Made by a program: the position numbers and the translations under genes. Below, piece after piece: positions 47,502-57,368 of a DNA stretch of 64,000 nucleotides. How positions within the stretch are numbered: the first letter of the stretch is position 1; the number at the start of each line of letters is the position of its first letter. The notes beneath the pieces were generated by a model that worked only from the letters and a program-made list of their open reading frames with translations, was not told the origin of the DNA and ran no database searches. Location: contig CALLLW010000023.1 in NCBI GenBank assembly GCA_938007995.1, positions 124,001-188,000 of the forward strand, written 5' to 3'. The DNA comes from an uncultured Granulosicoccaceae bacterium (GTDB taxonomy: Bacteria; Pseudomonadota; Gammaproteobacteria; Granulosicoccales; Granulosicoccaceae).

Positions 47502-48449
47502 ATGGGTGCGATTGAAAAAGCTATTGCGAAGTTCAATGTTGTAACCGGCCCTGAGGCAACTCAGGGCGTACCAACAGAAGATGTGGCGCAGATTCCAGCA
47601 ATCCCTGGCGTGCCGACAAAGACGGTAGTAAAGACCGACAACCCGTCGGTACAGTTAGTAAAGAGTGGAAGTCTGAAATCCGGCGCTCATTCGAATAAAA
47701 CGTTTTCATTGCCACACAAGGCAATGGAGCATGAAGGTCTGCTCGACCTTACCGCTCCGCGTAACCAGATGTCAGAAGAGTATCGTGCGATCAAGCGCCC
47801 AATTCTCGCTGCCATCGATTCGCAGGACCGGACTGACTTCTCCGCAGTGAACCGTAACGTAATCATGGTAACCAGCTGTATTTCCGGTGAGGGCAAAACT
47901 TTTTCGGCGATCAACCTGGCGTTGAGTATTGCGTTGGAGAAAGACCGCGATGTGCTGTTGGTAGATGGCGATATCACAAACCCGAGTTGTGGTGGTCGCC
48001 TTGGCTTCGATAATGATCGTCCCGGGCTGACCGAGCTGCTGCAGAACAAAGACCGCGATCCTGATGATTTGATCTGGCAGTCAGATTTGCCGAACTTTCG
48101 CTTTCTGCCCGCTGGCATTTCGCATAACCACGTGACCGAGCTGCTGTCCAGCAGGAATATGTCTGACCTGGTTGATGGTCTTTCACGTAACTATCCTGAA
48201 AGGGTGATCATCATCGATTCGGCCCCGCTGTTACTGACCAGTGAAGCGAGTATTGTCGCTGATCTCGCCGGACAAATTGTCTTTGTAGTGGGCGCAGAAT
48301 CAACTACACGTGGCATGGTTTCGGATGCATTGAGAATCGTCAACGATCACTCGCGTGTGGGATTCTTGCTAAACAAAACACGCAAAGCGCAGAACAACAT
48401 CTACGGCTATGGTTACGGCTATGGCTACGGGTATGCCAACGCTGGTTAA
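47502..48449 (+). CDS. Tyrosine autokinase (BY-kinase) of the exopolysaccharide locus
   Basis: The 315-residue cytoplasmic kinase has Walker A at residues 127-134 (SCISGEGKTFSAINLA), Walker A' in VLLVDGDITNPS, and Walker B in RVIIIDSAPLL. The C-terminus is an alternating Tyr-Gly tail with six tyrosines, the autophosphorylation cluster of BY-kinases. It pairs with the upstream chain-length protein to control polymer length and export (TIGR03018 class). The first 75 residues are a polar, proline-rich linker. Confidence 0.92.
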   Translation: MGAIEKAIAKFNVVTGPEATQGVPTEDVAQIPAIPGVPTKTVVKTDNPSVQLVKSGSLKSGAHSNKTFSLPHKAMEHEGLLDLTAPRNQMSEEYRAIKRPILAAIDSQDRTDFSAVNRNVIMVTSCISGEGKTFSAINLALSIALEKDRDVLLVDGDITNPSCGGRLGFDNDRPGLTELLQNKDRDPDDLIWQSDLPNFRFLPAGISHNHVTELLSSRNMSDLVDGLSRNYPERVIIIDSAPLLLTSEASIVADLAGQIVFVVGAESTTRGMVSDALRIVNDHSRVGFLLNKTRKAQNNIYGYGYGYGYGYANAG

Positions 48450-48521
48450 GCAAACCCTGTTAGATCCTGCGCGCTAACACTGGTTACCGGCAGGGCGTTT
48501 GTGTAATACTTCCTATGCTAG

Positions 48522-48553
48522 GCGTACCGGTAGTTATTTAAACACCGGTACGC
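48522..48553. repeat. 10-bp perfect inverted repeat between kinase and barrel genes
   Basis: GCGTACCGGT and ACCGGTACGC are separated by the 12-base AT-rich spacer AGTTATTTAAAC. It would form a strong hairpin in RNA of either strand. No U tract follows on the plus strand, so it is not a standard terminator; it may slow transcription between the export genes and the barrel gene or bind a dimeric regulator. Confidence 0.6.
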
Positions 48554-48670
48554 ACACTCCGATATGTCGTGCGGCGTGTGGCCGAATGGTCGCGGTATGT
48601 CTTTCCCCAATGTGCTGATTTGCATGCTTGACGCGTTTGGCGGCAACAGCGAAAAAACCGGAATGGCCTA

Positions 48671-49999
48671 ATGTACAAGAACATTATTCCTGCATCCTTA
48701 CTTTTTACGCTTCTCGGTTCGATGTCTGCCCCGGTGCAGGCCGAATGGGAGGTGTACAAGTTTCTGGATATCGGCGCAGAAGCGACAGACAACCTGCAAT
48801 TGTTTGCTGGTGAAGAAGTTGTTTTCAGTGTTCGCCCATCGATTGAGCTGGAGTTTAGCGGTAACCGGTTTAACTCCGAGATCATCGGCAGTGTAGAAGC
48901 ATTTCGTTTCAATGAACGCGACGACGAGATTATTGATCCGCGCCTGCAGCTGGAAACGGCAGGCACCCTGATTGACAATTTGCTTTTCACCAATGCCAGC
49001 CTCGAGTTCGGTAAGGTGATTGCCGGTGATGACTTCTTTGATCTGACTGAAGATTCAGACACTCAGGCACGACTGCGGTTAAACCCTTTTTTCGCAAGGC
49101 AGATCGGGCAGCTTGCCAATCTCTTTGTAGGCTATGGTCATCAGTCGCTCGACAACGAAACTGATGGCACAGTCGATTTTCAGCAAAACAGTGTGGCGTT
49201 TTCGTTAAATCGGAGCCCCAGGTTTGGCGGTTTTCTCTGGGGTGTTGGTGGTAACTACGAGCTATCCCGCGTGAACGACAATGAGGCGGATATTGACGAG
49301 AGCTTCGACTCTAGCTCGATCTTCGGGTCCATTGGATACACTCTCGGACAGACAGCGTTTTTCGAAGTAATTGGTGGTCAGGAAATCAACGATTTCACCG
49401 AGATTGCCAATGACGATGATCCAAGCGCATTCGCTGCTGCACGTCTGCACTGGACGCCCAGTGAGCGTACTTCCGTAGTGGTCGGGTTCAGTGATCGATT
49501 TTTTGGTGAAGGTCCAACATTATCAGTCAGTCACCAGGTGAGAAGTTCTTTACTCACGGCCAACTGGACTCGCGAGGTAAGTAATGCTGACGTTACGCTT
49601 GATGCAGTGACACCTTTCTCGGACGTAGATGATGCAATCATACCCACAGACATCAACCTGATAGACATCGATGAAAACGCGACCGCAAATCGGTTGTTCG
49701 TGGATGAAAGATTCAGTTTTGGTTACAAGCGCGCCGGTCGTCGTTCAGACTTAATTGTTGATGCGATTTTTTCTGATCAGACGGAGCTCGGTGGAGACGC
49801 CACGCGGTCGCAGTTTATTGGACGTATCGCGTTTGATCGCCAGTTAAGTCCATTGACAACGCTTCGGCTGCAGTACGAACATCTGCTTGAAGACAACCTG
49901 CAGGATGAAAGGGATAACGAGAACCGGGTCGGGCTCAGGTTTATCTTTAACTTCGATCGCAAAGAACGGGTTTCGATTATCGATGGAGAGGATTCTTAG
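48671..49999 (+). CDS. Outer-membrane beta-barrel protein of XrtA-type locus
   Basis: The 442-residue secreted protein has a signal peptide (MYKNIIPASLLFTLLGSMSA, cleavage after PVQA). The rest is built of alternating amphipathic strands with acidic turns, and ends in the strand GLRFIFNFDRKERVSII. It resembles the outer-membrane proteins of exosortase A loci (TIGR03016). It may serve as the porin through which the polymer leaves the cell, together with the Wza-like lipoprotein; that is inference from context. Confidence 0.85.
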   Translation: MYKNIIPASLLFTLLGSMSAPVQAEWEVYKFLDIGAEATDNLQLFAGEEVVFSVRPSIELEFSGNRFNSEIIGSVEAFRFNERDDEIIDPRLQLETAGTLIDNLLFTNASLEFGKVIAGDDFFDLTEDSDTQARLRLNPFFARQIGQLANLFVGYGHQSLDNETDGTVDFQQNSVAFSLNRSPRFGGFLWGVGGNYELSRVNDNEADIDESFDSSSIFGSIGYTLGQTAFFEVIGGQEINDFTEIANDDDPSAFAAARLHWTPSERTSVVVGFSDRFFGEGPTLSVSHQVRSSLLTANWTREVSNADVTLDAVTPFSDVDDAIIPTDINLIDIDENATANRLFVDERFSFGYKRAGRRSDLIVDAIFSDQTELGGDATRSQFIGRIAFDRQLSPLTTLRLQYEHLLEDNLQDERDNENRVGLRFIFNFDRKERVSIIDGEDS

Positions 50000-50018
50000 T
50001 AAAACAATGTGACGCCAG

Positions 50019-50073
50019 AACCCTGAAATTTGATACCTAAGTGTTGTGTTGAGGTAATAAATACAGGGTTTTT
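50019..50073 (+). terminator. Probable terminator after the barrel gene
   Basis: AACCCTG (50019-50025) pairs with CAGGGTT (50064-50070), and inside it TACCT pairs with AGGTA around a 13-base loop. The outer stem runs directly into a short T run. It lies 20 bases after the barrel gene stop, so it may end the export-gene transcript before the separately promoted sugar transferase gene. The stem is interrupted, which lowers confidence. Confidence 0.45.
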
Positions 50074-50240
50074 AAGTGGTTGGATGCAGGTTTATTTTTT
50101 GGCTCACCTGCTCGCACATTTTTGTGACTCTTTATGTGATCCGCGTATTAAATTAAGCTTGGTATCGCCAAGTTGGTCACTGTCCAATTAGCCTTTGCGC
50201 GTTAAAATCGCGCGGTCGTCCAAACCAGTCAAGAGAGCCG

Positions 50241-51644
50241 ATGGAATTAGATCCTATAGAAGTCTCAGCAACCGGCAATGTAGCGCGCCCGGAAGCTGTT
50301 CAGAAAACTTCCAAGAAGCTGTCCCTCGCAGGTATCCGCCCGTGGACCTGGTTTCTTATTGATTACGCACTTGCCTATGTAAGCGCCACAGTGGCGTTCA
50401 CGCTTACACCATACGCTCTGACCAACGCTAACGTAGTACAGGATCATGTGGGGCAGTTCGGTTTCTCGCTCGGCGTCGCGCTGATGGTTGCTGTAGTCGC
50501 ACACATCGCCGGCCTTCATGAGCTTGACCAGAAAGACCGATCTTTTGGTCTGCTGGGGCGCTGCTTTTTCGTGTCACTGATCGCTGCAGTTCTTATCAAC
50601 GCTGAACTACTTTTTGTGCACTACCTCACAGTGGGTCGCCTCATCACTATTTACACACTGATCGGCTGCACGGTCGGACTCTTTGCACTGCGTGCACTTT
50701 TGGTGGGTATGGCAGTGCGCAACACTTATGTAGTCGCATTGGTCGGCTCTACCGAGTACATTCGCAACAGCCTCAAGTTCCTCGGCACCAGTCAGCCAGG
50801 CGGAATGAAAGTCATATCCCTCGATATGAATGAGCACCCTGATACCAACCTGCGCGAGTGGGCAATAGCTAACGGTGTCGATCAGGTTGTCGTAGACACC
50901 GACGACCCGGCTTCTCCTTCGCAAAGCGAGCTGCTGAAGTTCATCGACGGCACGCTCACGGTTTCGAGGTTCACCAGCTTTGTCGAAAATCTGTACGAGA
51001 AGGTTCCAACGCAAAATATTACTGCTGAGTGGATCATCGATACCCAGTCAGCGCACGAGAGCCTCTACAAAAGCACAATGAAGCGGGTATTTGATGTTGT
51101 TATCGCCTCCGTGGCACTGGTCCTGTCTCTGCCGTTTGTGCTTATCGCAACGCTTGCAATCAAACTTGAAAGTCCCGGGCCGGTGGTTTTTCGTCAGGAG
51201 CGAGTCGGGCAATACGGCAAGACATTCACGATGCTGAAGCTAAGAAGCATGCGTACAGATGCCGAGAAAGATGGTGCGCAGTACGCTCAGGAAGGGGATG
51301 CTCGTGTTACCAAAGTTGGTCAGTTCCTGCGCAGCAGCCGACTGGATGAAGCACCTCAGCTGATTAATGTGCTGGCGGGTGATATGTCGCTGGTTGGTCC
51401 CAGACCTGAGCGTCCGGAGTTTACTGGTAAGCTTGAATCAAACATCCAGTTTTTCGTTCACAGACTAATGGTGAAGCCAGGTATTACTGGCTGGGCTCAG
51501 ATAAACGCAGACTATGCTGCCAGCGAGGAAGATTCCGTCACCAAGCTTTCCTACGATCTTTATTACGTAAAGATGCTGTCTCTGGCGATGGACGTTCGCA
51601 TTCTGCTGAGAACCATTTCACGGTTTTATGCTGGCGCTCGTTAG
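50241..51644 (+). CDS. Initiating sugar-phosphate transferase (polyprenyl glycosylphosphotransferase)
   Basis: The 467-residue membrane protein has five N-terminal hydrophobic helices, a CoA-binding-like middle domain, and a C-terminal bacterial sugar transferase domain from about residue 275. That domain has KRVFDVVIASVALVLSLPFV, SPGPVVFRQERVGQYGKTF, MLKLRSMR, and SLVGPRPERPEF. It starts repeat-unit synthesis by moving a sugar phosphate to undecaprenyl phosphate. It matches the XrtA-associated sugar transferases (TIGR03013). A good ribosome site (AAGAGAG) precedes ATG 50241. Confidence 0.93.
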   Translation: MELDPIEVSATGNVARPEAVQKTSKKLSLAGIRPWTWFLIDYALAYVSATVAFTLTPYALTNANVVQDHVGQFGFSLGVALMVAVVAHIAGLHELDQKDRSFGLLGRCFFVSLIAAVLINAELLFVHYLTVGRLITIYTLIGCTVGLFALRALLVGMAVRNTYVVALVGSTEYIRNSLKFLGTSQPGGMKVISLDMNEHPDTNLREWAIANGVDQVVVDTDDPASPSQSELLKFIDGTLTVSRFTSFVENLYEKVPTQNITAEWIIDTQSAHESLYKSTMKRVFDVVIASVALVLSLPFVLIATLAIKLESPGPVVFRQERVGQYGKTFTMLKLRSMRTDAEKDGAQYAQEGDARVTKVGQFLRSSRLDEAPQLINVLAGDMSLVGPRPERPEFTGKLESNIQFFVHRLMVKPGITGWAQINADYAASEEDSVTKLSYDLYYVKMLSLAMDVRILLRTISRFYAGAR

Positions 51645-52639: not shown

Positions 52640-54103
52640 TCACGACGCCAGTTCATTTTCTACCAGTTCATTTTCTACCAATTCATTTTCTATTAGAGAA
52701 CTAACCTCTGATAGTTCGTCTGTCAGTGCTCTGCAGTCAATCCAGACCGACTCCTGACTGACTCGTACAATGATCGGTACAGTCATAGATCTGAACCTCG
52801 CTGCGAGCTGATTTGCGCTTGCACCCGTGTCGCCAGCTATAACCACGGCATAGCTGTTGAGTGTTCTGGTCGGCAAAGCGCCACTGCCAATCTGGCTCTC
52901 GCACTGCTGTATCGTTACCTCCAGCGAGGGCAGTGTACGCGCGATGACCTTCTGCAACTGACCAGCTGTTTGCTGGATCGCTTCAGGCGGACGAGACAAC
53001 AGTTTCAACGAAGGTATCGTGTCAGCAAGATGTTCCGGCCTGGCATAGAGTTTTAGAACGGCGCCCAGTGCAGCCAGAGTGACTTTGTCCAGTCGCATGG
53101 CGCGCTTCATCGGGTTTTTATCAATCTTTCGGATCAAGTCTGCGCGACCGGCAATGATCCCACACTGCGGGCCACCCAGCAGTTTGTCTCCGCTGAATGT
53201 AATGAGATCTACACCATCCGCAATAGCCTCACGCGCGGTACGTTCATAGGGCAGGCCCAGGGCGGTGAGGTCGGTCAGAGTTCCACTGCCGAGATCGTCG
53301 ATTAGCGGGATGTCATGTTGGCTCGCAAGCTCTGCCAGAGAGCGTGCGTCTATGCTCTTGGTAAAGCCGTTTATCTCATAGTTGCTGGTGTGTATTTTCA
53401 TCAGGGCAGCGGTCTTTTTACCGATCGCCTCTTCGTAGTCTTTAAGATGAGTACGATTGGTGGTGCCGACCTCACGAAGTTTGCAATCTGCTTTCTTCAT
53501 GATCGCAGGAACTCGGAACGAACCACCAATTTCTATCAGTTCACCGCGTGAGACGATCACATGCTTTTTAGGGGCAATAGTGTTTAATGTGAGCAATACT
53601 GCGGCAGCATTGTTGTTTACGGTAGTGGCTGCTTCAGCACCGGTGAGCTTGCAAATCCAGGCTTCGACATGGTCGTCACGTCGCCCGCGCTTGCCTTTGG
53701 AGAGATCAAACTCAAGGTTACAGGAGCCACGGCTCACCTCGACCATCGCGTTGATTGCAGACTCGGGGTACGGCGCGCGTCCGAGGTTGGTATGCAGGAT
53801 AGTGCCAGTCAGATTGATGACTCTTTGCAGTGATAAGGTGTGGTCCTGCTGCAGACGACTTTCAACCTTCTGATGCAGTGTGTTGATCACAGCACGGTGA
53901 TCAGCATCTGTTAACGGCTGTGTGTCTGAAGCACTTGTGTTGTTTTGAATCAGCTGCGTGCGGACCTGGTTCAGGCAGGATCTGACTTCAGTTATAACCG
54001 TTTCCCGACCGTAGCACTCGCGCAGAGTCATAAACTGCTCGCTTTGCAAAAGCTTGTCGACTGACGGCAACTGGTTCGGGTGCGATAGTCTATCTATTTT
54101 CAA
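52640..54103 (-). CDS. selA: L-seryl-tRNA(Sec) selenium transferase SelA
   Basis: SelA converts seryl-tRNA(Sec) to selenocysteyl-tRNA(Sec) with selenophosphate and PLP. The 487 residues show RVINLTGTILHTNLGRAPYP, LTGAEAATTVNNNAAAVLL, LIDDLGSGTLTDL and the PLP lysine (Lys307) in TFSGDKLLGGPQCG. The C-terminus is extended by a triplet of LVENE units encoded by a 15-bp repeat. The start lies six bases after the stop of the UGA-containing selenoprotein gene, so both are on one transcript. Confidence 0.96.
   Translation of the reverse strand: MKIDRLSHPNQLPSVDKLLQSEQFMTLRECYGRETVITEVRSCLNQVRTQLIQNNTSASDTQPLTDADHRAVINTLHQKVESRLQQDHTLSLQRVINLTGTILHTNLGRAPYPESAINAMVEVSRGSCNLEFDLSKGKRGRRDDHVEAWICKLTGAEAATTVNNNAAAVLLTLNTIAPKKHVIVSRGELIEIGGSFRVPAIMKKADCKLREVGTTNRTHLKDYEEAIGKKTAALMKIHTSNYEINGFTKSIDARSLAELASQHDIPLIDDLGSGTLTDLTALGLPYERTAREAIADGVDLITFSGDKLLGGPQCGIIAGRADLIRKIDKNPMKRAMRLDKVTLAALGAVLKLYARPEHLADTIPSLKLLSRPPEAIQQTAGQLQKVIARTLPSLEVTIQQCESQIGSGALPTRTLNSYAVVIAGDTGASANQLAARFRSMTVPIIVRVSQESVWIDCRALTDELSEVSSLIENELVENELVENELAS
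52649..52693 (-). repeat. Three 15-bp tandem repeats at the selA 3' end
   Basis: Units CAGTTCATTTTCTAC (52649-52663 and 52664-52678, identical) and CAATTCATTTTCTAT (52679-52693) encode the acidic repeat ENELV at the C-terminus of SelA. The period is a multiple of three, so copy changes keep the frame. The extension lies outside the catalytic fold. Confidence 0.9.
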
Positions 54104-54109
54104 TGCCCG

Positions 54110-55279
54110 CTAGTCCCGCCATTGGTGAGGTACGATAAATTTATTACCCATATCGATGAGCTTATCATCGTCTGAATTCACAAAACGATGTCTTAGTTCG
54201 CGCATCCTGCTGCCAAGCAGTGTGCTCTGCCATAGCCAGTCGTAAATCTGTCGGCTGGACGGGCTGCCACGTTCGGCCATGGCAGCCTCAACGTAGTAGG
54301 CTTTTAAATCATCGATCGCGTATCTGAGCATCAGTCTGTCTGAAAGTTCTGGGCGGATTTTTTTGCCCTCTTTCCCATCGTATACAGCGTCGAACAGAGC
54401 GGCCAGATCAGCAATCGGTGCACCGGCTACTCCAACACTGGTTCTGCTTTTATCGACACACTGTCGCTGATACCACGGCTTTAATTCAATACACTCATCA
54501 GTCACTGAAAGGTGCGTGGCGATAACAGGCGGACGCCAGTCAGGGCAATCAATCGAGCGTGGATCCTCATCGGTGAAGTCTTCAATTACCGGTTGTTTTG
54601 CAGATTCCACAAGTTGCAGCGCCTTTACCAGCACTTGACGCTGAAACCGCGGGTCCATCGGCGCTCCGATCGGACGCCCCAGTTCAAAGGGTACCCAGAG
54701 CGCGCGCGGCGGGCGTGTTTTTTCAAGGTGAAGTTTGATTAATCCAATCACAACCGTACTAATACCGGCCATTTCCAACCAATGTGCAATAGCGCTCACG
54801 GCGCGTGTGCAGTTTGGTCAAACAGGCAGTAGACAGGCGGTGTTTATATCGGCGCTTTTGAGCTCGTTTGCCAGCTGTTCAACGCTTTCGCGAAACTTTT
54901 CCGGTGCTGTGGCACCCATAAAGGCGTAATGATTTTTTGCGGCCTCCGCAATCACCTTTTCTTCAGCTAACTCTTTCAACAAAGCGCGTGGAAATACTGA
55001 GTTGATGTCTTCGGCAAACGCAGTTCGATCAAAATTTACCGAAATATGGTTCATCAAAATATCTCGATCCGGCCACTTGCTTTCAAATGTGCGGTAGTCT
55101 GCGCTACCACCCGGTATATTCTCTTCTTTGCGCTTCATCAGCCCCGCAGACGAGATTAATGCCACCCGGCATTGTTCCAGTGGTCGCGGCGGTACGAATG
55201 CGGCATTGTCAAAGACCGGGCAGTCAAGGGTTTCGAGACCTTGCCTTTGCGCCTGGGTCATGTGCTCGGGTCTGGCCAT
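54110..55279 (-). CDS. Selenoprotein of the GrdB/PrdB family with in-frame UGA
   Basis: One reading frame of 389 codons is interrupted only by UGA at 54820-54818. Both halves share the same frame and belong to one protein of the glycine/sarcosine/betaine/D-proline reductase selenoprotein B family. The first half has VALISSAGLMKRKEENIPGG and HISVNFDRTAFAEDINSVFP; after the UGA come AHWLEMAGISTVVIGLIKLH and ELGRPIGAPMDPRFQRQVL. The UGA stands in ACLLPV-U-PNC, giving a UxxC redox pair (Sec154, Cys157) where the family has its selenocysteine. A SECIS-type hairpin begins just after it, and selA and selB adjoin. In clostridia such proteins reduce amino acids; in this organism the substrate is unknown and no GrdA, GrdC or thioredoxin partner is beside it. 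Confidence 0.9.
54779..54820 (-). promoter_or_regulatory. UGA recoding site with bacterial SECIS hairpin
   Basis: The UGA is at 54820-54818. Directly after it the RNA can fold with stems CCAA/UUGG, UGCA/UGCA and GCGC/GCGC, separated by 2x2 and 3x3 internal loops and closed by the five-base loop CGUGA (54800-54796). There are 17 bases between the UGA and the loop, and the second loop base is G followed by U. These fit the bacterial SECIS rules as I recall them (a 16-37 base gap, with G in the first two loop positions). SelB would bind the loop and deliver selenocysteyl-tRNA. Confidence 0.8.
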
Positions 55280-55427
55280 GTTTTTCTCCGTAATTGCGGT
55301 ATTCCCTGGTGTCGGACAAAATACTCACCAGGCAGTGATGCGGCACCAACAATAAAGGTATTCACCGGGCTGCACAAATCTGTCTGACCTTTTACCAACG
55401 CACGAAAAACATGTTTAAACAAGATAT
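55280..55427. promoter_or_regulatory. Divergent promoter region of the selenocysteine genes
   Basis: These 148 bases separate the start of the selenoprotein-selA operon (-) from selB (+), so promoters for both transcripts must lie here. I cannot point to clear -35/-10 boxes or an operator. A shared region would allow joint regulation of the selenoprotein and the decoding factor. Confidence 0.5.
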
Positions 55428-57368
55428 ATGATTATTGCTACAGCCGGTCACGTCGATCACGGGAAAACGTCACTGGTAAAAACACTGACCGGGACCGACA
55501 CAGACAGACATCCGGAAGAGAAAAAACGCGGCCTGACAATCGACATCGGTTTTGCCTATCTGCGAGCTGATGCCGGTAATGTTGCGATCATCGACGTACC
55601 CGGCCATGAGAAATTCGTTCGCAATATGATAGCGGGCGTAGGTTTGGTGGATATCGCGCTACTTGTTGTCGCGGCGGATGACGGACCCATGCCGCAAACA
55701 CTTGAGCACATTGCAATATTGCAGCTCATGAGCGTCAGTTTGGTTGTGCCGGTGATCAGTAAGGCTGATCTGGTCTCTGCAGAGCGTGCCACAGAGGTCA
55801 GTAATGAATTGAGTAGTCTTCTTGCAGCTGCCGGGCTGGCCACGAGTGATTTTTTCGAACTGTCAGTGCTTGATAAAGTTGCTGTTATGCAGCTTAGAGA
55901 TAAGTTGCTGGAGTTGGTGGGTTCACAAACAAAGCGCAGTGTACGTGGTCATTTCAGGATGCCGATCGACCGTTGCTTTACCATTGACGGCAGTGGCACG
56001 GTTGTCACTGGAACGGTGTCGTCCGGCCGGCTTGCAAAAAATGACACACTTGCATTGGTATCCGATATCACGTCTGAGGGCAAGACGGCTCGCGCCAGAA
56101 GTCTGCATGCACAGAACACTGAATCAGATGATGCCATTGCGGGACAACGATGTGCGATAAACCTGAGCGGTAGTTTATCGAAAGAAGAACTTAAACGCGG
56201 TAGCTGGCTGGTTGCGAATACCAGAGCTGTGCGAACCAGCATAATCGATGTGGCGCTTTCAGCTGCATTCAAACCGGATGCAGGTAAAGGTGATTCGAAT
56301 AACATAGCAGTTAATCACTGGACCCCTGCGCATCTGCATATAGGCACCGCTGATATTCCCTGTCGCATCGCCTTACTTGACTGTAAAAGTCTCAATCATG
56401 GCCAAACCGCTTTAGCCAGACTGATTTGTGATCGTACATTAACTGCCGCGCACGGTGATCGCTTTGTACTGCGTGATCAATCGGCTCGCTCAACTATTGC
56501 CGGCGGTCGTGTGATTGATGTCATGCCGCCACGTCGTGGTCGGAGCAAGCCGGCAAGGCTCGAGCAACTGGCAGCGTTGAATGCGCATACCGCTGACGAG
56601 GTGCTGAACAACCTGCTTGCTGTCAGTCCTCAGGGTATTGAGCTGGACAAGTTCGCGGCACGGTTTAATCTGTTGTCCGGTGAACTGGATGAGCTGGTAG
56701 GTAAAAATAACTTGCAAGTTATAGAAGCGGCAACCGCAAGCTGGTGTCTGACAAAATCACAAAGCGAAAAGATCGAACTCGATCTGCTGAATCAACTGCT
56801 TGAGCTTCACAAAGACAACCCCGATAAATTAGGCGTTGGCCTGGATGTTATCTATCGAGCATTGGAAAGAAAAATCCACACGGAAGTACTGGAGCATCAA
56901 CTCAAAGTACTGATCGATAAAAACAAAGTAGTGCGCACAGCGTCTGTATTCAGACACGTAGATCATCAGGTGGCAATGAGCTCTGCAGATGACAGTAGCT
57001 GGAAAAAGGTTGAGCAAAAATTATTAAAGGCTGATTTAAACCCACTCAGGCTCACAGAAATTGCAGAGTTGTTGGAAAAAGAGGTGGAAGATACGCGTCG
57101 GTTTATGAATCACTGTGTAGCGCACGGTAAAGTATTCAAAGTGACAGACAATCGTTATTTTCTGCCGCAAACGCTCAGACAGCTGGCAATCATTGCAGAA
57201 GCACTGGGTAAAGACGACAACCTTACAGTTGCCGAGTTTCGTAATGAATCCGGTATTGGCAGAAACCTGGTGGTCGAATTGTTAGAGTATTTCGATAGAT
57301 GCAGGTTTACCCAGCGAATGGGCAACAAAAGAACTGTACTGCTACGGGTAGAAGACGCGTTTCAGTAG
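55428..57368 (+). CDS. selB: Selenocysteine-specific elongation factor SelB
   Basis: SelB delivers Sec-tRNA to the ribosome at UGA codons marked by a SECIS element. The 646 residues show the GTPase motifs GHVDHGKTSLVKTLTGTDTD (residues 7-26), DVPGHEKFVRNM and SKADL, the EF-Tu-like domains with DRCFTIDGSGTVVTGTVSSG, and four C-terminal winged helices from about residue 400 that bind the SECIS. It starts at ATG 55428, divergent from the selenoprotein-selA operon. Its length and domain order are normal. Confidence 0.96.
   Translation: MIIATAGHVDHGKTSLVKTLTGTDTDRHPEEKKRGLTIDIGFAYLRADAGNVAIIDVPGHEKFVRNMIAGVGLVDIALLVVAADDGPMPQTLEHIAILQLMSVSLVVPVISKADLVSAERATEVSNELSSLLAAAGLATSDFFELSVLDKVAVMQLRDKLLELVGSQTKRSVRGHFRMPIDRCFTIDGSGTVVTGTVSSGRLAKNDTLALVSDITSEGKTARARSLHAQNTESDDAIAGQRCAINLSGSLSKEELKRGSWLVANTRAVRTSIIDVALSAAFKPDAGKGDSNNIAVNHWTPAHLHIGTADIPCRIALLDCKSLNHGQTALARLICDRTLTAAHGDRFVLRDQSARSTIAGGRVIDVMPPRRGRSKPARLEQLAALNAHTADEVLNNLLAVSPQGIELDKFAARFNLLSGELDELVGKNNLQVIEAATASWCLTKSQSEKIELDLLNQLLELHKDNPDKLGVGLDVIYRALERKIHTEVLEHQLKVLIDKNKVVRTASVFRHVDHQVAMSSADDSSWKKVEQKLLKADLNPLRLTEIAELLEKEVEDTRRFMNHCVAHGKVFKVTDNRYFLPQTLRQLAIIAEALGKDDNLTVAEFRNESGIGRNLVVELLEYFDRCRFTQRMGNKRTVLLRVEDAFQ

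Follow-up and report, generated by a model that had tools for sequence, protein, structure and literature searches.

A probable selenoprotein of the GrdB/PrdB superfamily encoded between selA and selB in an uncultured Granulosicoccaceae bacterium

In the window, the whole 64,000-nucleotide stretch of DNA from an uncultured Granulosicoccaceae bacterium that was analyzed here (contig CALLLW010000023.1, positions 124,001 to 188,000), two open reading frames at 54818-55279 and 54110-54799 lie on the minus strand in the same frame, which raises the question of whether they are two genes or a single gene read through an in-frame UGA, and what the product of such a gene would do. The TGA at 54818-54820 is the sole interruption of a 389-codon frame spanning 54110-55279 on the minus strand, and six sense codons separate it from the GTG with which the second open reading frame has a start of its own. 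The first-pass annotation had described this arrangement with exact coordinates and had proposed a selenoprotein with a UxxC redox motif, which was found as U154-P-N-C157 when the UGA is read as selenocysteine (Sec154). Read in this way, the 389 codons, Sec154 included, would encode a long form of the GrdB/PrdB superfamily with a C-terminal extension, and a Shine-Dalgarno-like GGAG is visible in the sequence 6 nt before the ATG (55286-55289, minus strand).

A search of GTDB genomes, using peptide patterns that left out the UGA region, confirmed 263 relatives, the best 80 of which were fetched; these come from Granulosicoccaceae (52-70% identity), alphaproteobacteria, Thermodesulfobacteriota, Nitrospinota and Chloroflexota. 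Together with locus L012 and the window they form a set of 82 full-length sequences from several phyla, and the codon in question is TGA in every one of the 82. No cysteine was found at this codon in these long-form sequences, which represent the best-matching third of the relatives. Residues H78, S80, N82-F83-D84-R85-T86, D91, H117, U154, C157, R159 and G201-R202-P203 are invariant. A sequencing error at 54818-54820, a concern raised at first pass, is ruled out by independent genomes with the same TGA; the homologues also do not match one half only, as the profiles run across the UGA (TIGR04483, residues 20-227), and the UGA column aligns with the Sec of PrdB. Short relatives, which lack the extension, mostly have Cys at this column and sometimes UGA; the short GrdB/PrdB-like paralogue in this genome (L002) is a Cys form, and UGA stands at the same column in L014, L015, L121 and L127 (MUPVCHQ, TUPVCHQ, LUPVCHQ). 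Switches between Sec and Cys occur in the short form and none was seen among the long forms of the best-matching third. In the phylogenetic tree, whose root was not used given the very long branch of the GrdB outgroup, the long form makes up one side of a branch with support of 92/87. In several Granulosicoccaceae genomes (G770, G780, G783, G785 and G788) a different contig bears an additional long-form copy, which likewise has the UGA.

A SECIS-like hairpin is predicted at 54774-54822 (minus strand) with an apical stem-loop at 54790-54806, and it was judged by synonymous constraint and covariation instead of single-sequence stability. Of the 241 four-fold third positions in the gene, the six with the lowest entropy across the 82 sequences are those of codons 158-163, immediately behind the UGA, and the chance of all six falling in a 9-codon set is 3e-10. 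In the same 82 sequences, 94.4% of the apical-stem cells are paired, with 13 double-change cells against 1.5 expected from shuffles and none of 500 shuffles as high, and slid registers of the stem do far worse. The GU in the loop (54799-54798) is invariant and resembles the SelB recognition feature of E. coli fdhF. Folded as a single sequence, the window hairpin has a z of -0.85, with 45 of 200 shuffles equally good; RNAalifold retains just 3 pairs, and the Rfam SECIS models gave no match at gathering or relaxed thresholds. A SECIS element directly after the UGA is thus strongly indicated by constraint and covariation, with single-sequence stability that is not strong. Pairwise dN/dS of the two gene halves was saturated and unusable.

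The strongest evidence from context comes from the two flanking genes, which had gone unidentified at first pass. The gene for L-seryl-tRNA(Sec) selenium transferase, selA (52640-54103, minus strand; TIGR00474, 578 bits against a cut-off of 268), lies 6 nt downstream on the same strand and is presumably cotranscribed with the selenoprotein gene, and the gene for the Sec-specific elongation factor, selB (55428-57368, plus strand; TIGR00475, 396 bits against a cut-off of 242), lies divergently 148 nt upstream. The genome also contains a tRNA-Sec with anticodon tca (UCA) and selD, so that selA, selB, selC and selD are all present. Here selD makes up the C-terminal portion of a 724-aa frame (L027, G000:C14, 4041-7381), the first part of which, read by eye, looks like an NADH-dehydrogenase-type flavoprotein. 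As this frame stands directly behind a gene that, by eye, resembles tRNA 2-selenouridine synthase, selD may be kept for selenouridine too. Beside the Sec island, exopolysaccharide-synthesis-like genes (a tyrosine-kinase-like ATPase and a sugar transferase) occupy 47502-51644 of the window in an order also seen in several relatives.

Both selA and selB adjoin the gene here and in ten records of Granulosicoccaceae, and in L043, L051 and L078 it likewise has selA as a neighbor; neighborhood clustering revealed no other recurrent neighbors, the remaining clusters being family-level synteny or scattered. Among 57 genomes (this one and those of relatives), selA occurs in precisely those 16 that have the long form, and 41 have neither; G778, from the same genus and 94% complete, lacks both. 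The Fisher value for this co-occurrence is 1.7e-14, a figure that ignores shared ancestry and linkage and therefore suggests more independence than there is. Other selenoproteins were sought in this genome among formate dehydrogenase, selD and GrdA, and no in-frame TGA was found in its formate dehydrogenase matches. Based on the co-presence with selA and on these formate dehydrogenase matches, the gene appears to be a main reason that Sec decoding is kept in this lineage. The long form is apparently a distinct, partner-free, Sec-only subfamily that is co-inherited with the Sec machinery.

The view that the UGA is a real stop, in a decayed gene, a split gene or a misread sequence, could draw on the GTG start of the second part and on the non-significance of the window hairpin by itself, but we give it practically no credence, as it is refuted by the TGA kept in 82 of 82 relatives across phyla and is opposed by a protein conserved on both sides of the UGA, by the SECIS constraint after it and by Sec machinery that adjoins the gene and is co-inherited with it. 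A pseudogene reading of 54110-55279 was likewise rejected on the conservation of the TGA across phyla. We consider it very probable from the sequence comparisons that 54110-55279 encodes one selenoprotein and that its product belongs to the GrdB/PrdB superfamily. The profile match across the UGA, the same-codon TGA in all 82 full-length relatives and the third-position constraint after the UGA amount to more than chance, and Sec coding is in this sense supported by comparative evidence.

The place of the protein within the superfamily was judged by curated profiles. PrdB is its best-scoring curated family (TIGR04483, E=2e-25), with a score of 89.6 bits that fails the NCBIfam equivalog cut-off of 300 bits. 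Two annotated PrdBs, from Enterococcus gilvus and Peptoclostridium acidaminophilum, pass this cut-off with 310 and 401 bits; both have TGA at residue 151, a position aligned with Sec154 of the window protein, and the E. gilvus gene sits in a prd cluster with prdA, prdC and prdD. The P. acidaminophilum prdB with its TGA is found at L176 2920-3630, with prdA not among the listed neighbors. GrdB was assessed by a cut-off of 602 bits, a full length of about 430 aa and a UxxCxxC motif; the window protein scores 40 bits, aligns with the C-terminal half alone and has UPNCTRA rather than UxxCxxC. A GrdB from another genome, whose gene has GrdE-type and GrdA genes as neighbors, carries Sec at the equivalent motif position (UGTC), so the UGA falls where the first-pass annotation had placed it, on the Sec of true PrdB and of a true GrdB. 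The cut-off for the broad subfamily is also failed (33 against 65 bits), and the Pfam GRDB family (PF07355), to which a comparison had been suggested, is matched weakly, above its gathering score (23.4 against 22 bits) but over no more than the later portion of the model. Every one of the 58 aligned family members is matched by the same five families.

By alignment, a core domain (residues about 20-239; 54563-55222, minus strand) shares homology with PrdB and with the C-terminal half of GrdB, and is followed by a mostly helical C-terminal extension of about 150 residues (residues about 240-389; 54113-54562, minus strand) that is absent from PrdB and largely absent from the short Cys paralogue. 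The original assignment to the GrdB/PrdB family therefore holds as superfamily kinship with PrdB nearest, and does not hold for PrdB or GrdB proper, as every curated PrdB or GrdB cut-off is failed and the extension is unlike PrdB. Identity as a genuine PrdB or GrdB was accordingly rejected, and on sequence evidence the window protein is superfamily-level kin that is neither. Separately, the PrdBs of L176 and L177 show a weak match (E 4e-5), around and after Sec, to the UGSC selenoprotein family NF041046, which may point to a remote relationship of two selenoprotein families that are both abundant in the sea.

Homology at the superfamily level, the matching position of Sec and the UxxC motif would also fit a B subunit of D-proline (or glycine-type) reductase that works with a PrdA/GrdE pyruvoyl subunit in Stickland-type reduction. 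The pyruvoyl-proprotein family of GrdE and PrdA (PF09338) was, however, absent from 24 of the 26 long-form genomes tested, including this one (G000), and GRDA (PF04723) was absent from 15 of 16, again including this one; at 91.5% completeness, these absences from the present genome are not absolute. It had been noted before that no Grd partners lie nearby, which is right, the flanks being selA and selB, and GrdA is also missing genome-wide at this completeness. With no conserved neighbor except selA and selB, scores far under the PrdB and GrdB cut-offs that true PrdBs pass, and two haem-copper oxidase (COX1) genes in the genome, which suggest that the host respires oxygen, such a B subunit is very improbable. 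One alphaproteobacterial MAG, the genome of L056, has GrdE-type, GrdB and UGA-containing GrdA genes (L174, G382:C421) in addition to the long-form gene.

A stand-alone selenolate/thiol reductase is most likely, by analogy with the characterized systems. According to a published account of D-proline reductase (PMC10298544), its selenolate probably attacks the alpha carbon of the pyruvoyl-bound substrate, after which a thiolate cleaves the selenoether, and another report links GrdB-like proteins to fluoroacetate reduction (PMC10838667), so that the superfamily is not limited to amino acids. Based on this chemistry and this link, we propose a stand-alone reductase with Sec154 as the nucleophile and Cys157 as the resolving thiol. 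Sec-tRNA(Sec) would be supplied through the neighboring selA and through selC and selD, which are unlinked, and SelB would read the hairpin just after the UGA, leading to Sec insertion at residue 154. Selenolate 154, perhaps aided by the invariant His78 and Arg159, would then attack an electrophilic substrate, with a C-N or C-X carbon as in PrdB and GrdB, an oxidized sulfur or a peroxide as candidate targets; Cys157 would resolve the product as a selenenylsulfide, and cellular thiols would re-reduce it. We infer the roles of His78 and Arg159, the type of substrate and the reductant from conservation and analogy. The structure, predicted with high confidence (pLDDT 91.6), consists of an alpha/beta core and, starting near residue 259, an all-helical region; this C-terminal helical region may replace a partner subunit. 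Searches of the PDB by sequence and with the model found no sequence match, no fold match at E<0.001 (noise only) and no solved structure of this fold.

That the reaction follows the PrdB/GrdB type of mechanism has, by analogy, slightly better than an even chance. It is possible, if doubtful, that the protein is instead a selenium-dependent antioxidant enzyme, a peroxidase or a thiol-disulfide or sulfoxide reductase, which has kept the PrdB scaffold and not the C-N cleavage chemistry. The UxxC redox motif, the apparently oxygen-respiring host, the helical region of its own with no pyruvoyl partner found, and an msrA on the far side of selA are all consistent with such an enzyme, but the model shows no peroxiredoxin- or thioredoxin-like fold at E<0.001 against the PDB, the invariant motifs HxSxNFDRTxFxxD and LGRP point to a specific site for a small molecule, and the msrA linkage occurs in 6 loci only, as family-level synteny. 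Returning to the stand-alone reductase, we tentatively suggest that this partner-free, apparently Sec-only branch in bacteria that respire oxygen, using a helical region of its own in place of a pyruvoyl subunit, may carry out an undescribed selenium-dependent reduction and be the chief or only selenoprotein keeping Sec decoding.

Occurrence in an aerobic proteobacterium, where the first-pass annotation had considered the role of the protein open, has precedent in earlier reports, in which PrdB is the third most abundant known selenoprotein family of the Sargasso Sea with 42 genes (PMC1088965, 2005), 235 PrdB members are counted in the GOS metagenomes (PMC2398784, 2008), and 'proline reductase' selenoproteins are listed for Anaeromyxobacter and Geobacter (PMC1794560). 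Judging from these excerpts, this kind of selenoprotein has been known since 2005. Less documented, apparently, is a long, partner-free, seemingly Sec-only subfamily co-inherited with the Sec machinery: the portions of the literature retrieved by term held no description of the long architecture, the apparent lack of Cys forms, the missing partners or the coupling to selA and selB. Few selenoproteins are commoner in sea water than those of this superfamily, and yet their name, 'proline reductase', comes from anaerobic clostridia, the partner proteins of which are absent here. With Cys forms apparently lacking, selA and selB linked to the gene, and close relatives missing both the gene and selA, this is a clean genetic system in which the benefit of one gene may pay for the Sec machinery.

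Compared with known systems, the window protein is like PrdB of D-proline reductase in its core (residues 20-227), Sec column and UxxC motif, whereas identity is 25-26%, the motif is of the type UPxCTR rather than UGTCHR, and a C-terminal extension is present with no PrdA-type partner found. To GrdB, GrdF and GrdH of glycine, sarcosine and betaine reductase (PF07355, TIGR01917/01918) it is homologous over their C-terminal half with a common Sec column, but it has no counterpart of the GrdB N-terminal half, has UxxC and not UxxCxxC, and was found with neither the GrdA nor the GrdE partner of those systems. The short 'selenoprotein B family' proteins of proteobacteria (L002, L014, L015, L121 and others) have the core in common with the long form, with UGA or Cys in the same column, and differ in their UPVCHQ or CPVCHQ motif, often with Cys, in having no long C-terminal extension and in their separate branch of the tree. 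Finally, the marine 'PrdB' proteins of the Sargasso Sea and GOS data, as described in excerpts of those reports (PMC1088965, PMC2398784), are UxxC selenoproteins filed under PrdB/pfam07355 and abundant in sea water, and, likened on these features, they are probably the same group as the long form or a neighboring one.
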